A stretch of 64,000 nt of DNA. Origin: Tritonibacter multivorans. Its GTDB lineage: Bacteria; Pseudomonadota; Alphaproteobacteria; Rhodobacterales; Rhodobacteraceae. This document shows, in pieces, positions 9,696 to 57,842 of the stretch. The position numbers were made by a program, and so were the translations under genes. The stretch is taken from assembly GCF_001458415.1 (NCBI RefSeq), contig NZ_CYSD01000033.1, forward strand, positions 1 through 64,000, given 5' to 3'. The notes below the pieces were generated by a model. The model was given only the letters and a program-made list of their open reading frames with translations. It ran no database searches and had not been told where the DNA came from. Positions within the stretch are counted from its first letter, which is position 1; the number at the start of each line of letters is the position of its first letter.

Positions 9696-10658
9696 TTAAC
9701 CGTTCTGGGCAATCAGTTCGGCTTGGGCGACGATCACTTCGGCCTGTTTGATCGAAGCAATGTCGACCAGACGGCCTTTGTAGACGGTGGCGCCTTCGCC
9801 GTTTGCCTTGGCTTGTTCCATTGCCGCAAGAATCTCGCGTGCCTCGGTGACGGCGTCTTCAGAAGGGGTGAAGACCTCATTGGCCAGCGCGATCTGTTTC
9901 GGGTGGATCGCCCATTTGCCGACCATGCCCAGCGTGGCAGAGCGTTTCGCCTGCGCGATATAGCCGTCGTCATCAGAGAAGTCGCCAAAGGGCCCATCGA
10001 CGGGCAGGATACCGTGGGTGCGGCAGGCGGCGACAATGGCGGCCTGCGCCCAGTGCCAGGGGTCGGACCAGTGTTTCGCGCCCTCGCGCAGCATATAGTA
10101 ATTTTCCTGCGTGCCGCCGATGCCGGTGGTCTGCATCCCCATGGAGGCGGCGAAATCCGCAGCCCCCAGCGACATCGCCTGCAAGCGCGGGCTGCTGGCA
10201 GCAATGGCTTCCACATGGGCGATGCCCGCGGCCGATTCGATAATGACCTCGAAGGACACCGGTTTGGTGCGGCCCTTCGCGGCCTCGATCGCGGTGACCA
10301 GCGCGTCGACCGCATAGACGTCTTCGGCGCAGCCCACTTTGGGGATCATGATCTGGTCAATCCGGTCGCCAGCTTGCTCCAGCAGATCCACTACATCGCG
10401 GTACCAATAGGGGGTATCCAGCCCGTTGATGCGCACGGACATATATTTGTTGCCCCAATCCACAGTGTTCAGGGCCTCGATCACATTGGCGCGGGCGGTG
10501 TCCTTGTCGGAGGGGGCAACCGAATCCTCTAGGTCGAGGTTGATCACATCCGCAGCCGAGGCCGCCATCTTCGGGAACAGTTTGGTGTTGGAGCCCGGGC
10601 CAAACAGCTGGCAGCGGTTGGGGCGTGCAGGGGCGGCGGGCTGGATCCGAAAGCTCAT
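9696..10658 (-). CDS. mcl1: L-malyl-CoA / beta-methylmalyl-CoA lyase
   Basis: A 320-residue HpcH/HpaI-type lyase. It opens MSFRIQPAAPARPNRCQLFG and continues very close to Rhodobacter sphaeroides Mcl1, including VINLDLEDSVAP (acidic metal site), VRINGLDTPYWYRD, IIESAAGIAHVEAI and SLGAADFAASMGMQTTGIGG. Mcl1 reversibly cleaves beta-methylmalyl-CoA to glyoxylate and propionyl-CoA, and malyl-CoA to acetyl-CoA and glyoxylate, in the ethylmalonyl-CoA pathway for C2 assimilation. It is cytoplasmic and Mg-dependent. It diverges from dgcN across a 316-base region with two strong palindromes. Confidence 0.93.
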   Translation of the reverse strand: MSFRIQPAAPARPNRCQLFGPGSNTKLFPKMAASAADVINLDLEDSVAPSDKDTARANVIEALNTVDWGNKYMSVRINGLDTPYWYRDVVDLLEQAGDRIDQIMIPKVGCAEDVYAVDALVTAIEAAKGRTKPVSFEVIIESAAGIAHVEAIAASSPRLQAMSLGAADFAASMGMQTTGIGGTQENYYMLREGAKHWSDPWHWAQAAIVAACRTHGILPVDGPFGDFSDDDGYIAQAKRSATLGMVGKWAIHPKQIALANEVFTPSEDAVTEAREILAAMEQAKANGEGATVYKGRLVDIASIKQAEVIVAQAELIAQNG

Positions 10659-10712
10659 GTGTCTTGTTCTCCGGGTTCATAAATTGCGTCAATCTTGCCC
10701 GAATGGTTATTT

Positions 10713-10734
10713 CCTTGCGTGCCGCTTCGCAAGG
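10713..10734. promoter_or_regulatory. Inverted repeat CCTTGCG-N8-CGCAAGG
   Basis: A perfect 7-base inverted repeat with an 8-base spacer, about 55 bases upstream of mcl1. It could be an operator. On the plus strand it could also form a hairpin followed by T-rich sequence. Confidence 0.45.
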
Positions 10735-10739
10735 ATCTT

Positions 10740-10756
10740 TTTGCAGTTGCAGCAAA
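10740..10756. promoter_or_regulatory. Inverted repeat TTTGC-N7-GCAAA (LysR-like T-N11-A)
   Basis: A perfect 5-base inverted repeat around a 7-base spacer, 6 bases from the palindrome at 10713-10734. The layout fits a LysR-type operator. A LysR gene lies at 14437, but no direct link is shown. Confidence 0.4.
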
Positions 10757-10974
10757 TGCACCGCAGCGTCGTTTCGGAGATTCGCATGCTGCGCTGCGTC
10801 ATTACTTGCTTAAAACTTAATCGATGCGGGAGGAAATTCGATGAATTGTTCAAAATGGGGATGAAATCCCGAAAATTTCGCAATCGAGCTGGAGTTTGAG
10901 ATCATCTTGCACCGCGTCACCTCCAAAGTCGTTGGGAAACTGCATCTTTTAGATAAAGACGAAAGGGCCAGGCC

Positions 10975-11976
10975 ATGATCGAAACTCCTTACCTGCTGTT
11001 CTTGGGCGACGTGCCCGATATGCTGGCTGCCAAAGTGGCCATCGGCATCCGCGACTGGCGTCCGGAAAACGCCGTGGGGCAGATCTCTCTGCCGGGCTGC
11101 GGCGCGGATCTGGGCCTGACCGAAATGACCCTGGCCGAGGCACAGGAAGCAGGCGCCAAAACCCTGGTCATTGGTGTGGCCAACCGTGGCGGCATGATTT
11201 CCCAAGCGTGGAAAGAGCTGCTGGTTCAGGCGCTGGAGATGGGCTTTGACATTGCTTCTGGCCTGCACAACCTGCTGCGCGATGAAAACGATCTGGTGGC
11301 GGCTGCACAGACCCACGGTTGCACCCTGCATGATGTGCGCATCCCGACCGTGGCCTATCCGATTGCCAACGGCAAACCCCGCACCGGGAAACGCTGCCTT
11401 GCGGTCGGCACCGACTGTTCGGTGGGCAAGATGTACACCGCGATGGCAATGGATGCGGAAATGCAGAAGCGTGGGATGAAATCCACCTTCCGCGCCACCG
11501 GCCAGACCGGCATCCTGATCACCGGTGGCGGCGTGCCGCTGGATGCGGTGATTGCCGACTTTATGGCCGGCTCCATCGAATATCTGACCCCGGACAATGA
11601 TCCGGATCACTGGGACCTGATCGAAGGTCAGGGGTCGCTGTTCCATGTGTCCTATTCTGGTGTGACCATGGCGCTGGTTCATGGCGGCGCGCCGGATGCG
11701 CTGATCCTGTGCCACGAGCCGACCCGCACCCATATGCGCGGCCTGCCGGACTATTCCGTGCCGTCGCTGCAGGAGCTTGCGGACACCGCGCTGCCGCTGG
11801 CGCTGCGCGCGAACCCGGCCTGTAAGATTGTTGGTATCTCGGTCAACACCCAGCACCTGAGCGAAGAGGAGGCGGTTGCCTACCTCGCCAAGGTTGAAGA
11901 AGACATGGGCCTGCCGGCCGTGGATCCCTACCGCCACAGCGCCGCGCGCCTGGTCGATGCGCTGGACGCAATCTGA
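10975..11976 (+). CDS. dgcN: D-glutamate N-acetyltransferase (DUF1611 family)
   Basis: A 333-residue DUF1611 protein. The N-terminal third resembles a small Rossmann domain. The rest holds a P-loop-like segment AVGTDCSVGKMYTAMAMD near residue 145, followed by KSTFRATGQTGILITGGGVPLDAV. DgcN of Pseudoalteromonas acetylates D-glutamate with acetyl-CoA to N-acetyl-D-glutamate, and homologues are widespread in Rhodobacterales. The assignment rests on family plus the adjacent dgcA. Older databases call such proteins 'DUF1611' or 'NAD-dependent epimerase'. The start at 10975 follows AAAGGG. It is first in a plus-strand series dgcN-dgcA-dat. Confidence 0.85.
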   Translation: MIETPYLLFLGDVPDMLAAKVAIGIRDWRPENAVGQISLPGCGADLGLTEMTLAEAQEAGAKTLVIGVANRGGMISQAWKELLVQALEMGFDIASGLHNLLRDENDLVAAAQTHGCTLHDVRIPTVAYPIANGKPRTGKRCLAVGTDCSVGKMYTAMAMDAEMQKRGMKSTFRATGQTGILITGGGVPLDAVIADFMAGSIEYLTPDNDPDHWDLIEGQGSLFHVSYSGVTMALVHGGAPDALILCHEPTRTHMRGLPDYSVPSLQELADTALPLALRANPACKIVGISVNTQHLSEEEAVAYLAKVEEDMGLPAVDPYRHSAARLVDALDAI

Positions 11977-11988
11977 GGTTTAACTTCG

Positions 11989-12051
11989 CCGGATGGCGCC
12001 TGTGGCGCGCTGCGGGAGCCTCCGGCGGGGATATTTTTAAAAAGATGAAGT
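11989..12051. repeat. Intergenic repeat with 'GGGGATATTT...AAAGATGAAG' core (copy 1)
   Basis: GC-rich, partly self-complementary DNA (GCCGG at about 11990 with CCGGC at 12022-12026) leads into the core at 12027-12050. The same core recurs at 52387-52413 (inverted) and 57801-57827. It lies between dgcN and dgcA, so it may attenuate or process the transcript rather than end it. Confidence 0.6.
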
Positions 12052-12074
12052 CAGGGCGCTGATCTTTGGGCCGA

Positions 12075-12130
12075 CCGTCAGGGTTGGGCCGGGGTCTTGT
12101 GCTTTGGCGGGCCTGCCGTCAGGGTTGGGC
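12075..12130 (+). repeat. Direct repeat CCGTCAGGGTTGGGC, two copies
   Basis: Exact 15-base copies lie at 12075-12089 and 12116-12130, with a 41-base period, immediately upstream of dgcA. This could be a protein-binding pair or a small tandem duplication. Confidence 0.55.
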
Positions 12131-12157
12131 GTGAATAAACGAGCGGAGGGCTCTTTC

Positions 12158-13123
12158 ATGAAGCTGAGCGTGCAAGGTGATGTCTTTAAACTGGCGCAGG
12201 TCTTCACCATTTCCCGCGGCTCGCGCACCGAAGCCAAAGTGCTGACGGTCAAGGTGGCGCAGGATGGGCATGTGGGCTGGGGCGAATGCGTGCCTTACGC
12301 GCGTTACAATGAAACGCTCGAGAGTGTGACGGCGGAAATCGAAGGTCTGCCCGAAAGCTTCACCCGCGCTGAACTGCAGGATCTGCTGCCTGCGGGTGCG
12401 GCGCGCAATGCCGTGGATTGTGCGCTCTGGGATTTGGAGGCGAAACAGGCGGGCAAACGCGCCTGGGATCTGGCCGGGCTGCCTGCGCCGGGGCCAGAAA
12501 TCACCGCCTATACGCTGTCGCTGGACACGCCGGAAAACATGCAGGCGCAGGCCGCAAAGAATGCCTTCCGCCCGCTGTTGAAGATCAAGCTTGGCACCCC
12601 CGACGATATGCCCCGGCTGGAGGCTGTACGCGCCGGTGCGCCAGAGTCGAAAATCATTGTTGACGCCAATGAGGGATGGTCCGCTGAGGTCTATGCCGAT
12701 CTGGCCCCGCATCTGGTGCGACTGGGCGTGGCGCTGGTTGAACAGCCGCTGCCCGCTGGCGATGATGATGCGTTGATCGGGATGGAGCGCCCGGTGCCGG
12801 TCTGCGCCGACGAGAGTTGCCATGACCGCGCCAGCCTAGCGGATCTCAAAGGCAAATATGACGTCATCAACATCAAACTGGACAAAACCGGTGGCCTGAC
12901 TGAGGCCCTGAAGCTGCGCGATGCAGCGCTGGCCGAGGGCTTCGAGGTGATGGTGGGCTGTATGGTCGGATCGTCACTGGCGATGGCCCCTGCGACACTG
13001 GTGGCGCAGGGTGCGGTTGTGACAGACCTTGACGGGCCGCTGCTTCTGGCCGAAGACCGGGACCAACCGTTGACTTTTGACGCCGCAGGGGTGCACCCGC
13101 CCGTTGCCGCGCTGTGGGGCTGA
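12158..13123 (+). CDS. dgcA: N-acetyl-D-glutamate racemase (dipeptide-epimerase-like, enolase superfamily)
   Basis: A 321-residue enolase-superfamily enzyme of the muconate-lactonizing/dipeptide epimerase subgroup. The catalytic KxK is in LLKIKLG near residue 148. The metal ligands are the Asp of IIVDANEGW, the Glu of VEQPLP and the Asp of CADES, and the second catalytic Lys is in NIKLDKTGG. These two lysines allow racemisation. In Pseudoalteromonas the homologue DgcA converts N-acetyl-D-Glu to N-acetyl-L-Glu. Databases often name such proteins L-Ala-D/L-Glu epimerase, which remains an alternative. The ATG at 12158 follows GGAGGG. It lies 181 bases after dgcN and 10 bases before dat. Confidence 0.85.
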   Translation: MKLSVQGDVFKLAQVFTISRGSRTEAKVLTVKVAQDGHVGWGECVPYARYNETLESVTAEIEGLPESFTRAELQDLLPAGAARNAVDCALWDLEAKQAGKRAWDLAGLPAPGPEITAYTLSLDTPENMQAQAAKNAFRPLLKIKLGTPDDMPRLEAVRAGAPESKIIVDANEGWSAEVYADLAPHLVRLGVALVEQPLPAGDDDALIGMERPVPVCADESCHDRASLADLKGKYDVINIKLDKTGGLTEALKLRDAALAEGFEVMVGCMVGSSLAMAPATLVAQGAVVTDLDGPLLLAEDRDQPLTFDAAGVHPPVAALWG

Positions 13124-13133
13124 GGAGAAGAAC

Positions 13134-13994
13134 ATGACCCGTACCGTTTACGTGAATGGCGAATACCTGCCAGAGACAGAGGCCAAGGTCTCGATCTTTG
13201 ATCGTGGGTTTTTGTTTGCGGATGCTGTCTACGAGGTGACCTCGGTGCTGGATGGCAAGCTGATCGATTTTGAAGGCCACGCCGTGCGTCTGGAGCGTTC
13301 GCTGAACGAGCTGGAGATGAAATCCCCCTGCACCAAAGACGAACTGCTGGAGATCCACCGCAAGCTGGTTGAGCTGAACGGCATCGAAGAAGGTCTGGTT
13401 TACCTGCAGGTGTCCCGTGGGTCGGATGGCGACCGTGATTTTGTCTTCCCCGGCGAAGACACCGAACCGTCGCTGGTGCTGTTCACCCAGAACAAGCCCG
13501 GTCTGGCCAACAGCCCGGCGGCGCAAAAAGGCGCCAAGGTCATCTCGATCGAGGATATCCGCTGGGGGCGTCGTGACATCAAAACCGTGCAGCTGCTGTA
13601 TCCGTCCATGGGCAAGATGATGGCCAAGAAAGCGGGGTGTGATGATGCCTGGATGATCCAGGATGGCTATGTGACCGAGGGCACCTCGAACAACGCCTAT
13701 TACGTCAAGGATGGCAAGATCATCACCCGCCCGCTGTCCAATGACATCCTGCATGGCATCACCCGCAAGGCGGTTCTGCGTCTGGCGGAAGAAGCACAGA
13801 TGCAGATCGAAGAACGCCTGTTCACCATTGATGAGGCCAAAGAGGCTGATGAGGCCTTCACCACCTCGGCCTCGGCCTTTGTGATGCCGGTTGTGGAAAT
13901 CGATGGCGCAACTTTGGGCGATGGCACACCGGGGCCGATCGCCAAGCGTCTGCGCGAGATTTATCTGGAAGAGAGCCGCAACAGCGCGATCTGA
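13134..13994 (+). CDS. dat: D-amino-acid aminotransferase (PLP fold type IV)
   Basis: A 286-residue class IV aminotransferase. The PLP lysine is in RRDIKTVQLL near residue 145. The opening FDRGFLFADAVYEVTSV and the C-terminal TEGTSNNAYYV and HGITRKAVLRLA match D-amino acid transaminases. Dat moves the amino group between D-amino acids and 2-oxo acids (D-Ala + 2-oxoglutarate to pyruvate + D-Glu). It starts 10 bases after dgcA with GAGGAGAAG upstream, so the two are almost certainly co-transcribed, and it would feed D-Glu to DgcN. Branched-chain aminotransferase activity is the main alternative. Confidence 0.88.
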   Translation: MTRTVYVNGEYLPETEAKVSIFDRGFLFADAVYEVTSVLDGKLIDFEGHAVRLERSLNELEMKSPCTKDELLEIHRKLVELNGIEEGLVYLQVSRGSDGDRDFVFPGEDTEPSLVLFTQNKPGLANSPAAQKGAKVISIEDIRWGRRDIKTVQLLYPSMGKMMAKKAGCDDAWMIQDGYVTEGTSNNAYYVKDGKIITRPLSNDILHGITRKAVLRLAEEAQMQIEERLFTIDEAKEADEAFTTSASAFVMPVVEIDGATLGDGTPGPIAKRLREIYLEESRNSAI

Positions 13995-14016
13995 TCGCCG
14001 TGGGGCCCAGACAGTC

Positions 14017-14045
14017 AAAAGGCCGCCCTTGGGGCGGCCTTTCTT
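14017..14045 (+). terminator. Terminator after dat
   Basis: AAAGGCCGCCC and GGGCGGCCTTT enclose a short loop and run into TTTCTTT, about 25 bases past the dat stop. It ends the dgcN-dgcA-dat unit. Confidence 0.9.
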
Positions 14046-14254
14046 TATGTTCTCGTGAGTGAGCTTTTGCGCCGTTTGGCGAAGCGGGATGTAAAATGCA
14101 CCTCCCGTGTGTCGGCGGCCGACGGAGCGTTTCGCAGGCTCTCTCGGGCTTCCATTAAGGCCTGACGTGCCTCGCGAAAGTTATTGTCACGAGCGCATTC
14201 TATGGCGTAATCCACCAATTTACTAAGCGCCCGGCGTTCCCGGTCTGAGCCCAT
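14045..14254 (-). CDS. Hypothetical small protein
   Basis: A 69-residue basic protein (MGSDRERRALSKLVDYAIECAR... RFAKRRKSSLTRT), mostly helical by composition, with no recognised domain. The ATG at 14254 follows GGGGAGGACG at ideal spacing. A second start at 14362 also has a good GGAGGG site and would give 105 residues, adding a polar low-complexity N-terminus. The shorter form is preferred on composition. It is divergent from the LysR gene and convergent with dat. Confidence 0.6.
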   Translation of the reverse strand: MGSDRERRALSKLVDYAIECARDNNFREARQALMEARESLRNAPSAADTREVHFTSRFAKRRKSSLTRT

Positions 14255-14436
14255 GTCGTCCTCCCCTGCCACCTGCGTTTGAAGGTCACGCCGATCCCCC
14301 TTCCGGGCTTTCGGAATTCGGGTCTGATTTGCTATGCTGTTCGTATGTGCAGCGTTCGCCATTCGTGCCCTCCTAAACGTTGTGTTAATTTTGCGGACAG
14401 CTCGGTTCTTAAGCAATCGACGGAGAGAATTAACCT

Positions 14437-15360
14437 ATGAACAAGATCGATATTTCAAACATTTCCGGGCAGAGCATGCGTGTGTTCCTGGCGGTTTATG
14501 ACGAAATATCAGTAAGTAAGGCGGCTTTACGTTTGGGGCAGAGCCAGTCTTCGGTCAGCCATACATTAGAGAAACTGCGTGGAATAATGGGGGCAGAGTT
14601 ATTCCAAAAATCCGGCAGAGGGATCGTGCCGACCGCTTTGGCGACACGGGTGGCTCCGGTCCTGCGCCAGATTGTGGCGGATCTGGAAAGTTTGGGGGAA
14701 AGCGACGATTATGATCCGGCCGAGGACAAGTCGCCAGTCATCATTGCCCTGAACGGCAGCGCCATGGCGGTGATGTCGTCACGGTTGCGCGAAACCCTGT
14801 GGGAGACGGTGCCGTTTCGGGAAATCTGCCTGCGCGAACTGGGGTCGCGCGATAATCTGGAGGATTGTCTGCAACGTCAGGAGGCGGATCTGGCCATTGT
14901 GCCACGCCTCAATACCTATCCGCAGACACTGCAGCATTCCGCGCTCTATAAGGATCGGTCGGTGATTTACTACGACCCAAGCCAACGTGGGCCGGTGACC
15001 ACCATCGAGGACTATGGCAGCGCCCGCCATGCGGTGCTGGATTTTGGTGGCCGCACCAAAAGCAATGTTGAACAGCAACTGGCGCAATGGGCGATCAACC
15101 GCGAAGTTTGCCTGCGGGTGCAAAATGTCTGGCTGATGGCTGAAGCCCTGACAGGGTCGGATATGATCACCACATTGCCCGAAACCCTTAGCCGTGGGCC
15201 GCTGTCGCACCTGGAGACCTGCGAGCCGCCCTTTGTGAAGGCGCCTTTCACCTTCGATCTGACCTGGCATATCCGCCAGGAGAATTCGGCCCGCAATCTG
15301 TGGCTGCGCCGCATGGTGCAGCGCAGCGTCGAAGGGCTATTGGCCGCCGCTTCAAAGTGA
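14437..15360 (+). CDS. LysR-family transcriptional regulator
   Basis: A 307-residue LysR protein. The N-terminal helix-turn-helix is clear (FLAVYDEISVSKAALRLGQSQSSVSHTLEKLRGIMGAELFQKSGRG). The effector domain covers about residues 95-300 (SPVIIALNGSAMAVM, then EADLAIVPRL). NodD/NahR-type members have a similar build. Its position near dgcN-dgcA-dat and the T-N11-A-like site in the mcl1/dgcN region suggest, but do not show, that it controls D-Glu genes. The start ATGAACAAG at 14437 follows GGAGAG at about 8 bases. Confidence 0.9.
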   Translation: MNKIDISNISGQSMRVFLAVYDEISVSKAALRLGQSQSSVSHTLEKLRGIMGAELFQKSGRGIVPTALATRVAPVLRQIVADLESLGESDDYDPAEDKSPVIIALNGSAMAVMSSRLRETLWETVPFREICLRELGSRDNLEDCLQRQEADLAIVPRLNTYPQTLQHSALYKDRSVIYYDPSQRGPVTTIEDYGSARHAVLDFGGRTKSNVEQQLAQWAINREVCLRVQNVWLMAEALTGSDMITTLPETLSRGPLSHLETCEPPFVKAPFTFDLTWHIRQENSARNLWLRRMVQRSVEGLLAAASK

Positions 15361-15675
15361 TCAGGGTTTGTCCGAGACGTTTTCTTTGAAAGCGGTCTCA
15401 AACGCGGCCTGCTGTTTGGGGCTGGCGTCGGTCTGATAGTTGGCCTTCCACTCTGCCATGGTCATCCCATAGAACAGCTCGCGGGCCTCATCCTTGCCCA
15501 TCTCGATGCCTTTTTCATTGGCCGCTTCTTGATACCAGCGGCTCAGGCAGTTGCGGCAGAACCCGGCGAGGTTCATCATATCGATGTTCTGCACATCGGT
15601 GCGGTCCTGCATCAGGTGCTGTTGCAGACGGCGGAAGGCGGCGGCTTCGAGTTCGATGCGGGTTTGGTCGTCCAT
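15361..15675 (-). CDS. DUF1244 domain protein
   Basis: A 104-residue DUF1244 protein. The family signature MNLAGFCRNCLSRWYQEAA, with two conserved Cys, is followed by KDEARELFYGMTMAEWK. It is a small cytoplasmic protein of unknown function found in Alpha- and Gammaproteobacteria. The start at 15675 was chosen because the domain begins at MDDQTRIELE. It converges on the LysR gene without a gap and may be co-transcribed with the upstream amidohydrolase gene, 65 bases away. Confidence 0.88.
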   Translation of the reverse strand: MDDQTRIELEAAAFRRLQQHLMQDRTDVQNIDMMNLAGFCRNCLSRWYQEAANEKGIEMGKDEARELFYGMTMAEWKANYQTDASPKQQAAFETAFKENVSDKP

Positions 15676-15740
15676 GGGATCCTCTTGTCGGCTCGTGGCT
15701 GTGTTGGTTTTCTGTGATGTAGGGCTGGGCCCGAGTTTTG

Positions 15741-16508
15741 TCAGCCCTCGGCTGTCTCGGTGGCCGCAAGTGCCTGCGGGAGCAGATCTGCGAGATGATG
15801 GGCCCATTGGACTTGTTGCGCGGCTGTGGTGATCAAGTCATTGCGCAGCTCCACCAGCGTGTTGGGGCGCCCCTGTTTGGTGCCATGGCGGTCGATGGCA
15901 TCGCCGGGCAGGTAGCCTGTGTAGGGTTCATTGTCGCCCACGGTCAGGTCGCCCGGCGCGGCCAGCATATCAATCAGGGCAGGGGACAGGCGTTCGCCAT
16001 CGGGATACAGAATGCCGATCTCCCAGGGACGGGGCGGGCGACCGCGCAGTTGCGGGGTGAAGGAATGGATGGCCACGATAATGGTGTCGTCGCGCCGCGC
16101 CGCCAGCTCTGCCACTGTATCGTGATAGGGGCGGTGGCAGCGGTTCAGGCGCATGTCCAGCTCTGCCTCGTCGGCGTGGCGGTTTGCCGGAATGATGGTG
16201 CCGTCGTATAGTTTCATCAGCAGCGTCGGGTCATCTTCGCCGCGATTGGGGTCAATCACCAGCCGCGAAAAGTTCGAGGCCACAACCGGCGCGCCCAACG
16301 CATCCCCCAGCGCCCGCGCCACGCCATAGGCGCCGGGATCATAGGCAATGTGGCGTTCCATGTCCTCGGCTGGAAGGCCAAGGTCACCGCCATTGACAAA
16401 GGGCGGGATGTAATTGGTGGCGTGATCGCAGGTAATAAGCCAGCGACTGTCCAATTCGGTTCCGTGTGTGAAAAAAGCTGTGTATGTCATTGCCGTGTCA
16501 TCAATCAT
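15741..16508 (-). CDS. N-formylglutamate amidohydrolase family protein
   Basis: A 255-residue FGase-family hydrolase (PF05013). Recognisable parts are WLITCDHATNYIPP near the N-terminus, FSRLVIDPNRGEDD, IIVAIHSFTPQLRGRPRPW-like and VELRNDLI at the C-terminus. The zinc ligands are probably the conserved His/Glu residues of these blocks. The classic reaction is N-formyl-L-Glu to formate and L-Glu in histidine degradation, but no hut genes are here. Nearness to dgcN/dgcA allows another acyl-glutamate substrate. The start is uncertain: 16508 (MIDDTAM) or 16490 (MTYTAFF). Confidence 0.82.
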   Translation of the reverse strand: MIDDTAMTYTAFFTHGTELDSRWLITCDHATNYIPPFVNGGDLGLPAEDMERHIAYDPGAYGVARALGDALGAPVVASNFSRLVIDPNRGEDDPTLLMKLYDGTIIPANRHADEAELDMRLNRCHRPYHDTVAELAARRDDTIIVAIHSFTPQLRGRPPRPWEIGILYPDGERLSPALIDMLAAPGDLTVGDNEPYTGYLPGDAIDRHGTKQGRPNTLVELRNDLITTAAQQVQWAHHLADLLPQALAATETAEG

Positions 16509-16658
16509 TGATCGACCTATAGGGGAGTTGCGGCGAATTTGGAATTGCGCCATAAGACCCCCGAAGAAATGTTTGCGTTAACATCCGTCATGTAGGATAC
16601 CAGACGCGACCTAGCCGCACAGCCATTATTCTGATCCGTTCCGGAGGAAATCGAGCCC

Positions 16659-52386: not shown

Positions 52387-52455
52387 CTTTCATCTTTTTC
52401 CAAATATCCCGGGGGAATTGGCCGCAGGCCAAGGGGGCAGCGCCCCTCCCCAAGG
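52387..52455. repeat. Intergenic repeat with 'GGGATATTT...AAAGATGAA' core (copy 2, inverted)
   Basis: The core lies on the minus strand at 52387-52413, then TTGGCC-GCA-GGCCAA (52418-52432) and GGGGGCAGCGCCCCTCC. It lies between fahA and hmgA, inside the operon. It resembles copy 3 at 57801-57827 more closely than copy 1. Confidence 0.65.
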
Positions 52456-57448: not shown

Positions 57449-57842
57449 GATCGTCTCCTATGGTTGCTCGTGGTTTTTCCACGAAGTTTGCGAAACATCC
57501 CAGAGCTCCTGGTCCTCATCGGGTCCGCGGATCTGAAGGTCAGACTGCGCCCGCCGGAGATGGCTGTTTTTCCTTTTATTTCCCTTTGGTTCTGTCCCCT
57601 GATCCGATGAGAAAACCGGGGGGTGCGGACAGGCCAAAGTCCCGGCGACTCGCAAAGAGTTGCCCGGATGGACGGTCTTTAGTTGGAATGCGCCTGTAAA
57701 TCAAGGCCGTTTCGTCGCGAAACGCGTTGCGTGACGGGCGTACGCCGGGGCCGCAACGGGGGCAGGCGGGGCAGCGGTGGAGCGGGGCGCTGCCCCGCAC
57801 CCCGGGATATTTGAGAAAAGATGAAAGAGCAGCGCCTACGCC
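57449..57842. other. trmD-rplS intergenic region with a repeat
   Basis: This 394-base gap within the translation cluster holds copy 3 of the intergenic repeat (57768-57827). The rest is rplS leader DNA with no supported gene. A pyrimidine-rich patch (57550-57600) may contain an rplS promoter. Confidence 0.5.
57768..57827. repeat. Intergenic repeat (copy 3)
   Basis: GGGGCAGCG (57768-57776) pairs with CGCTGCCCC (57788-57796), followed by the 'CCCGGGATATTT...AAAAGATGAAAG' core at 57801-57827. The core differs from copy 2 by about two bases. Confidence 0.65.

Follow-up and report, generated by a model that had tools for sequence, protein, structure and literature searches.

The window analysed here, i.e. 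the whole 64,000-nucleotide stretch of the Tritonibacter multivorans contig NZ_CYSD01000033.1, carries three consecutive genes on its forward strand, dgcN, dgcA and dat, which belong to known enzyme families and make up a real and broadly conserved unit. These genes had been noticed in a sequence-only reading, made without database searches, in which they were proposed to encode one linear route for the salvage of D-amino acids; the coordinates and the dgcA-dat spacing that it gave proved exact when the open reading frames were checked. The locus comprises the following features, the gene products being predicted ones.

10975..11976, forward strand: dgcN, D-glutamate N-acetyltransferase (DUF1611), 333 aa; ATG at 10975, TGA at 11976

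12020..12049, no strand assigned: repeat-like AT-rich element within the dgcN-dgcA gap, detected as matches to a 30-base pattern

12158..13123, forward strand: dgcA, N-acetyl-D-glutamate racemase (enolase superfamily), 321 aa; ATG at 12158, TGA at 13123

13134..13994, forward strand: dat, fold-type-IV transaminase of the D-amino-acid transaminase subfamily, 286 aa; ATG at 13134, TGA at 13994

14018..14042, forward strand: intrinsic terminator-like hairpin with an 11-pair stem, a loop of 3 and a T-rich tail

The spacing between dgcA and dat is 10 bases as compared with 181 bases (11977-12157) between dgcN and dgcA. Because this longer gap contains the repeat-like AT-rich element, the case for a common transcript is weaker for dgcN and dgcA than for dgcA and dat. 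The 30-base pattern of the element occurs once in the window at up to 3 mismatches, and a looser AT-rich pattern is found at two further places in the window (52389-52411 and 57803-57825; 0 expected). A terminator had also been proposed behind dat, and a terminator-like hairpin does occur there: 8 of its 11 stem pairs are G-C, it ranks first among the 6 terminator-like sites of region 10600-14500 (mean of 3.5 in shuffled sequences), and the stretch around it folds with -27.9 kcal/mol (z -2.3), 4 of 200 shuffles being equally good. A search of the same region for sigma-70-like promoters returned none, which says little for an alphaproteobacterium.

Family membership was judged by profile score relative to the model cut-off (NCBI equivalog and subfamily models). 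DgcN passes the equivalog NF041892 with 542.7 bits (cut-off 480) over model positions 1-326 of 326, carries the C and N domains of Pfam DUF1611 and matches its solved homologue 7xrj across residues 1-333 (631.8 bits). DgcA passes the equivalog NF042940 (507.5 bits; cut-off 400) and, on the L-Ala-D/L-Glu epimerase model PRK15129, stays below the cut-off with 311.5 bits of 343. With both proteins above their equivalog cut-offs, the identities assigned to them at first sight are supported. The best solved relatives of DgcA are 4gfi, of which the 318 residues printed score as a DgcA (471.6 bits; cut-off 400) and which was reportedly deposited with L-Ala-L-Glu, followed by the E. coli L-Ala-D/L-Glu epimerase 1jpd. 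An alignment of 145 DgcA rows (94 genera with dgcN, 11 without and 40 other loci of the class) has K142, K144, D169, E195, D218, K240, K243, D290 and D292 invariant throughout. We take K142, K144, D169, E195, D218 and K243 to be the catalytic lysines and metal ligands of the enolase superfamily, while the Asp-x-Asp pair D290-x-D292 presumably corresponds to the one that, in the established epimerases, holds the ammonium group of the dipeptide. A second, distant DgcN relative (31% identity, 112.4 bits) was detected elsewhere in the genome of the window itself (G000:C15:2060-2869), and similar second matches occur in a number of other genera.

Dat passes the D-amino-acid transaminase subfamily model NF005209 with 388.2 bits (cut-off 320), and its best solved relatives are D-alanine aminotransferases, at 208.5 bits versus 145.8 for the best branched-chain enzyme. 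Its residues Y33, V35, R101, F103, K150 and E182 are invariant in the 117 rows aligned.

Searches with the three proteins in 120 genera of the family to which the window belongs, gaps being measured between match ends, found all three genes in 94 genera, dgcA and dat in 11, dat alone in 11 and none in 4. In these counts, dgcN matches below 290 bits are considered paralogues and genome G035, which has one of only 107.9 bits, is placed among those without dgcN (94 of 95 listed); a second 308-bit dgcN match in G050 and the split halves in G108 were counted once per genome, and the weaker second dat match of five genomes was disregarded. At the thresholds used no other combination occurs in the 120 genera, dgcN being strictly nested within dgcA and dgcA within dat. 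With kinship ignored, Fisher's p is 1.6e-12 for dgcN versus dgcA and 1.7e-4 for dgcA versus dat, the latter being inflated by the four genomes devoid of the three genes, which are 77-94% complete.

Of the 94 genera that possess all three genes, 87 have them in the order dgcN-dgcA-dat on one strand within a span of 6 kb, which exceeds chance. dgcN and dgcA are at most 400 bases apart in 90 of these, the other four corresponding to three contig splits and one relocation. For dgcA and dat the gap is at most 400 bases in 82 of 105 genera, at most 30 bases in 57, and the two genes stand in order within 6 kb in 101. Gaps of 440-3186 bases between them occur in 19 genera, 16 of which were read (all but G005, G076 and G102); the inserts, named by eye, include four NUDIX-like, two exonuclease-like and two esterase-like cases, the remainder occurring once each. 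An extra pathway gene at this position was rejected, these inserts being of several kinds with no common partner. The NUDIX-hydrolase-like genes are those of loci L016, L020, L021 and L032.

The neighbourhood was further compared in the 80 best named DgcN loci out of at least 584, which are the closest relatives, so that this control is valid for that range only. The top match is an unclassified Rhodobacteraceae metagenome-assembled genome (95% identity), and the following ones belong mostly to Leisingera, Epibacterium, Roseobacter and Ruegeria, which points to a roseobacter as the source of the window. In these named relatives dat comes after dgcA in 72 of the 72 loci with enough flank, whereas mcl adjoins upstream in 44 of 72 and, in 40 of 67, a gene designated DUF1244 is located downstream of dat at a distance of up to 2.4 kb. 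The three genes therefore cohere better than their surroundings, and the link between dgcA and dat, first drawn from the order of the genes and the enzyme family in a single sequence, outlasts the outer neighbours.

Next to the unit, near pyk, the window contains at 15364-16553 a DUF1244-like gene and an N-formylglutamate-amidohydrolase-like (FGase-like) gene, both often kept near dat; the FGase-like protein scores 28.3 bits on TIGR02017 (cut-off 278.75). In genome G062 (L025, L026) a break occurs between dgcN and dgcA, with dgcN accompanied by mcl and accA and the dgcA side kept with dat, DUF1244, FGase-like and pyk. A LysR gene (14437-15360) was considered as a conserved regulator and dropped: it reaches 100.1 bits on the BsrA model (cut-off 480), and a relative above 150 bits is found beside the unit in one of the 80 named loci, some of which have short flanks.

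These data are, in our opinion, best accounted for by a unit that consumes D-amino acids of the peptidoglycan type, with dgcA-dat as its core and dgcN as an optional module, a reading that we consider reasonably probable. Dat would transfer the amino group of D-Ala, and of other D-amino acids, to 2-oxoglutarate, yielding pyruvate and D-Glu; DgcN would N-acetylate D-Glu, and DgcA would racemise N-acetyl-D-Glu into N-acetyl-L-Glu, two reactions reported elsewhere for the corresponding families. The D-Glu made by Dat would in this way be removed by DgcN-DgcA, and N-acetyl-L-Glu would subsequently be deacetylated or enter arginine metabolism via ArgE- or ArgJ-type enzymes, both of which pass their cut-offs in the genome (356.6 and 389.6 bits, respectively). 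With dgcA-dat as the persistent core and dgcN as the optional part, DgcA would very likely also act on a substrate that is not made by DgcN. We infer the substrates of Dat, its feeding of DgcN, the co-transcription of the genes and the origin of the substrates. MurI passes narrowly in the same genome (147.6 bits; cut-off 146.65), so that Dat need not supply the D-Glu of the cell wall, a role that was considered less likely.

Since DgcN-DgcA yield the compound with which arginine synthesis begins as its first intermediate, and homologues of ArgJ and ArgE are present, the pair could instead serve to supply N-acetyl-L-Glu for this synthesis and not to catabolise D-Glu; an ArgE-type route would indeed consume acetyl-Glu one for one. 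Little N-acetyl-Glu is however required where ArgJ recycles the acetyl group, and inspection by eye revealed no arg gene beside the unit, so that an arginine-supply function seems improbable.

Several observations weigh against the catabolic reading. Dat falls below the D-amino-acid transaminase equivalog TIGR01121 (246.8 bits; cut-off 277.45), and its carboxylate trap, which in canonical Group I D-amino-acid transaminases is Tyr-Arg-His according to the accessible part of a published account (PMC12429042), is composed of Tyr33, Arg101 and Phe103, with Phe replacing His in 117 of 117 rows. Within the family, 11 of 120 genera possess dgcA and dat while lacking dgcN, and another 11 have dat alone; dgcA and dat are separated in 4 of 105 genera (on the other strand in G018, on different contigs in G008, G054 and G090), and dgcN lies about 64 kb from dgcA in G062. 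Part of the gene order in the family reflects ordinary shared synteny, as accA, mcl, DUF1244, FGase-like and pyk are also retained in many cases. Outside it, 40 of the 47 dgcN-bearing genomes of the class were fetched, 38 of them plus two of family f65, and dat is absent from the fetched flanks of the dgcN-dgcA locus in all 38, some of these flanks ending at contig ends. Finally, D-amino acids may be oxidised by other routes: the DadA model has 28 sub-threshold matches in the genome, and the use of many D-amino acids by deep-sea Nautella is credited, in the accessible text of that study, to deaminases rather than transaminases (PMC4836201). DadA itself did not pass in the genome, the best match scoring 227.5 bits (cut-off 383); this speaks for the catabolic reading, but weakly, as only one of 14 control genomes passes.

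The earlier view of Dat as a D-amino-acid aminotransferase is supported in part: membership of the NF005209 subfamily agrees with it, while the more specific equivalog model and the trap His do not. Both the missed TIGR01121 cut-off and the invariant Phe would also fit an L-branched-chain transaminase, or another fold-type-IV enzyme, in place of a D-transaminase. Apart from the subfamily score and the closer kinship to solved D-alanine aminotransferases, this is contradicted by a score of only 180.4 bits on the branched-chain model PRK08320 (cut-off 363) and by the YxxxxFxGxR motif given for the E. coli branched-chain aminotransferase (PMC12429042, accessible part), which is unmatched in Dat, where it reads FxxxxYxVxS; a branched-chain or other activity is thus highly improbable. 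The Group II motif of D-amino-acid transaminases, RxxxxF with an Arg-[Arg/Lys] dyad in the same source, was also sought in Dat and is absent, the protein reading FxxxxYxV. Among 20 Dat homologues sampled elsewhere in the class, 12 carry Phe and 8 His at the trap position, indicating that Phe is common in the Dat family and no peculiarity of this locus. The trap residues are presumably located at the dimer interface.

In the genera with dgcA and dat but no dgcN, these two genes are adjacent in 10 of 11 (in G008 they are on different contigs), and 9 of the 11 genomes are at least 94% complete, two of them, G055 and G093, consisting of one contig each. In 7 of the 11, mcl is directly upstream of dgcA and faces away from it, as is often the case upstream of dgcN elsewhere. 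The dgcN-less state requires 10 changes on the DgcA tree and 9 on the DgcA+Dat tree, versus a mean of 10.6 with shuffled labels, and on the latter branches with SH-aLRT of at least 90 separate five dgcN-less placements. The dat-only state requires 10 changes versus a shuffled mean of 10.7, three dat rows having been left out. In these trees branches are mostly weak and two rows are long, and the counts of changes are blind to gain versus loss. Given the scattered placements and the shared chromosomal position, dgcN is read here as having been lost several times while dgcA and dat were kept.

If the product of DgcN were its only substrate, DgcA would be idle in these 11 genera. Since dgcA is kept without dgcN and its active-site residues are unchanged in all of the 145 rows, it is likely that a substrate independent of DgcN exists, and DgcA probably has a use of its own, perhaps on L-Ala-D-Glu, the obvious candidate in view of its kinship with L-Ala-D/L-Glu epimerases. 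For the same reasons, namely the scattered dgcN-less genomes and the unchanged active site, it is unlikely that the linear route from D-Ala through D-Glu to N-acetyl-Glu explains everything.

This evidence can be pushed further, to a core devoted to muropeptide recycling in which DgcA would act mainly or additionally as an L-Ala-D/L-Glu epimerase and Dat would remove D-Ala, dgcA-dat salvaging the pieces of the stem peptide while DgcN opens a branch for free D-Glu. Such a core is compatible with the catabolic reading; we regard it as a serious possibility, with a chance somewhat below even. It is favoured by the persistence of dgcA-dat in mostly near-complete dgcN-less genomes, by the 9 changes and the five well-separated placements on the tree, by the DgcA residues, the Asp-x-Asp pair included, that are identical with and without dgcN, by the epimerase score and the rank of 1jpd among the solved relatives, and by the fact that a dgcA match without dgcN (E 1e-50 or better) occurs in 21 of 190 genomes of the class, some of these being only 38-50% identical. 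On the other hand, the DgcA proteins of genomes lacking dgcN, four of 11 being tested, score 438-508 bits and hence also exceed the DgcA cut-off, so that their sequence marks no switch, and no muropeptide peptidase was noticed by eye among the neighbours of 10 loci, where no family search was made. An unlinked N-acetyltransferase may also stand in for DgcN in these genomes; a replacement acetyltransferase beside dgcA was considered and set aside, none being noticed by eye among the neighbours of the same number of loci. A sequence mark of a substrate change in DgcA was rejected as well: no column of the 145-row alignment separates genomes with and without dgcN, and the shift in DgcA versus Dat identity in dgcN-less genera is not significant (11 versus 90, p 0.07).

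Outside the family, dgcN adjoins dgcA in all 38 loci fetched. Of the two loci from family f65, where DgcN is 71-72% identical, one has dat immediately after dgcA and the other ends at a contig edge; G282, one of the 38, carries a dat-like gene some 6 kb past dgcA, farther out than the part of the locus read initially. A dgcA match is present in 48 of the 49 class genomes with dgcN, the exception being G210 in which dgcN is near a contig end, and in 21 of the other 141, where some of the matches are weak; dat matches are found in 112 of 190. In 7 of the 38 loci a gene that resembles, by eye, gamma-glutamyltransferase genes is found near dgcN-dgcA, as in L141 (8532-10409). Together with the genera having dat alone or dgcA-dat without dgcN, the lack of dat in the fetched flanks of these 38 loci argues against the single linear pathway initially proposed.

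The wide occurrence of dat, yet outside the fetched dgcN-dgcA flanks beyond this group, raises the question of whether dat is a housekeeping gene for balancing D-amino acids that has its own place in the chromosome, a dgcN-dgcA cassette having landed in front of it with a loose functional link. In line with this, 8 of the 11 dat-only genera have mcl just upstream of dat or DUF1244 downstream, 4 of them both, and in G090 dat is located beside DUF1244 and pyk with dgcN-dgcA on another contig. Against it, dat is found behind dgcA in every named relative with sufficient flank, although many of these lack the outer neighbours, and the gap is 30 bases or less in more than half of the 105 genera. Such an arrangement is judged unlikely.

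A broader proposal, advanced only tentatively and doubtful as it stands, is that in roseobacters dgcA-dat rather than dgcN-dgcA would be the stable functional pair: enzymes of the DgcA family would be dual N-acyl-Glu racemases and L-Ala-D-Glu epimerases, coupled to an unusual Tyr-Arg-Phe D-transaminase to dismantle the D-Glu and D-Ala of stem peptides, and DgcN would be an option for free D-Glu that was lost many times. D-amino acids from bacterial walls make up a sizeable and slowly used share of marine dissolved organic matter, of which roseobacters are common consumers. Should the proposed function hold, the succession of dgcA and dat would be one marker for genomes able to use both D-Ala and D-Glu. 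That dgcN is missing repeatedly provides natural test cases for the role of DgcA without DgcN, and bears on whether its annotation as an N-acetyl-D-Glu racemase alone is complete.

When compared to known systems, the locus shares with the published DgcN-DgcA pathway for D-glutamate (Yu et al. 2023, ISME J), as far as its accessible description goes, equivalogs of the same names that are adjacent and in the same order; it differs by the dat gene attached downstream, which none of the 38 class loci elsewhere has in its flanks. The step proposed for Dat, which here has Phe in place of the trap His, is of the type reported for the marine Pseudoalteromonas CF6-2, where D-Ala is used through a D-Ala aminotransferase (Yu et al. 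2022, AEM). DgcA belongs to the superfamily of the L-Ala-D/L-Glu epimerases YcjG/YkfB, whose E. coli member is 1jpd (PMC5808125, accessible part), and differs from them in staying below the cut-off of the epimerase model. The closest parallel is the Rhodobacteraceae strain LCG007, which grows on D-Ala, D-Glu and peptidoglycan and for which a D-amino-acid transaminase, a D-Glu N-acetyltransferase and an N-acetyl-D-Glu racemase are reported, as at this locus (PMC11747546); in its accessible part this account assigns the transaminase to D-Phe and D-Lys and describes neither one cluster nor mutants. Among the titles and abstract openings listed by a literature search that covered few subscription journals, no dgcN/dgcA/dat cluster was found in print, nor in the accessible parts of PMC12363236, PMC10845958 and PMC11747546, nor was any description found of the confinement to this group, the strict nesting or the persistence of dgcA-dat without dgcN. 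The catabolic concept for the unit is largely already in print, and the new element is the comparative one, namely that in this group it is dgcA and dat that form the stable pair.

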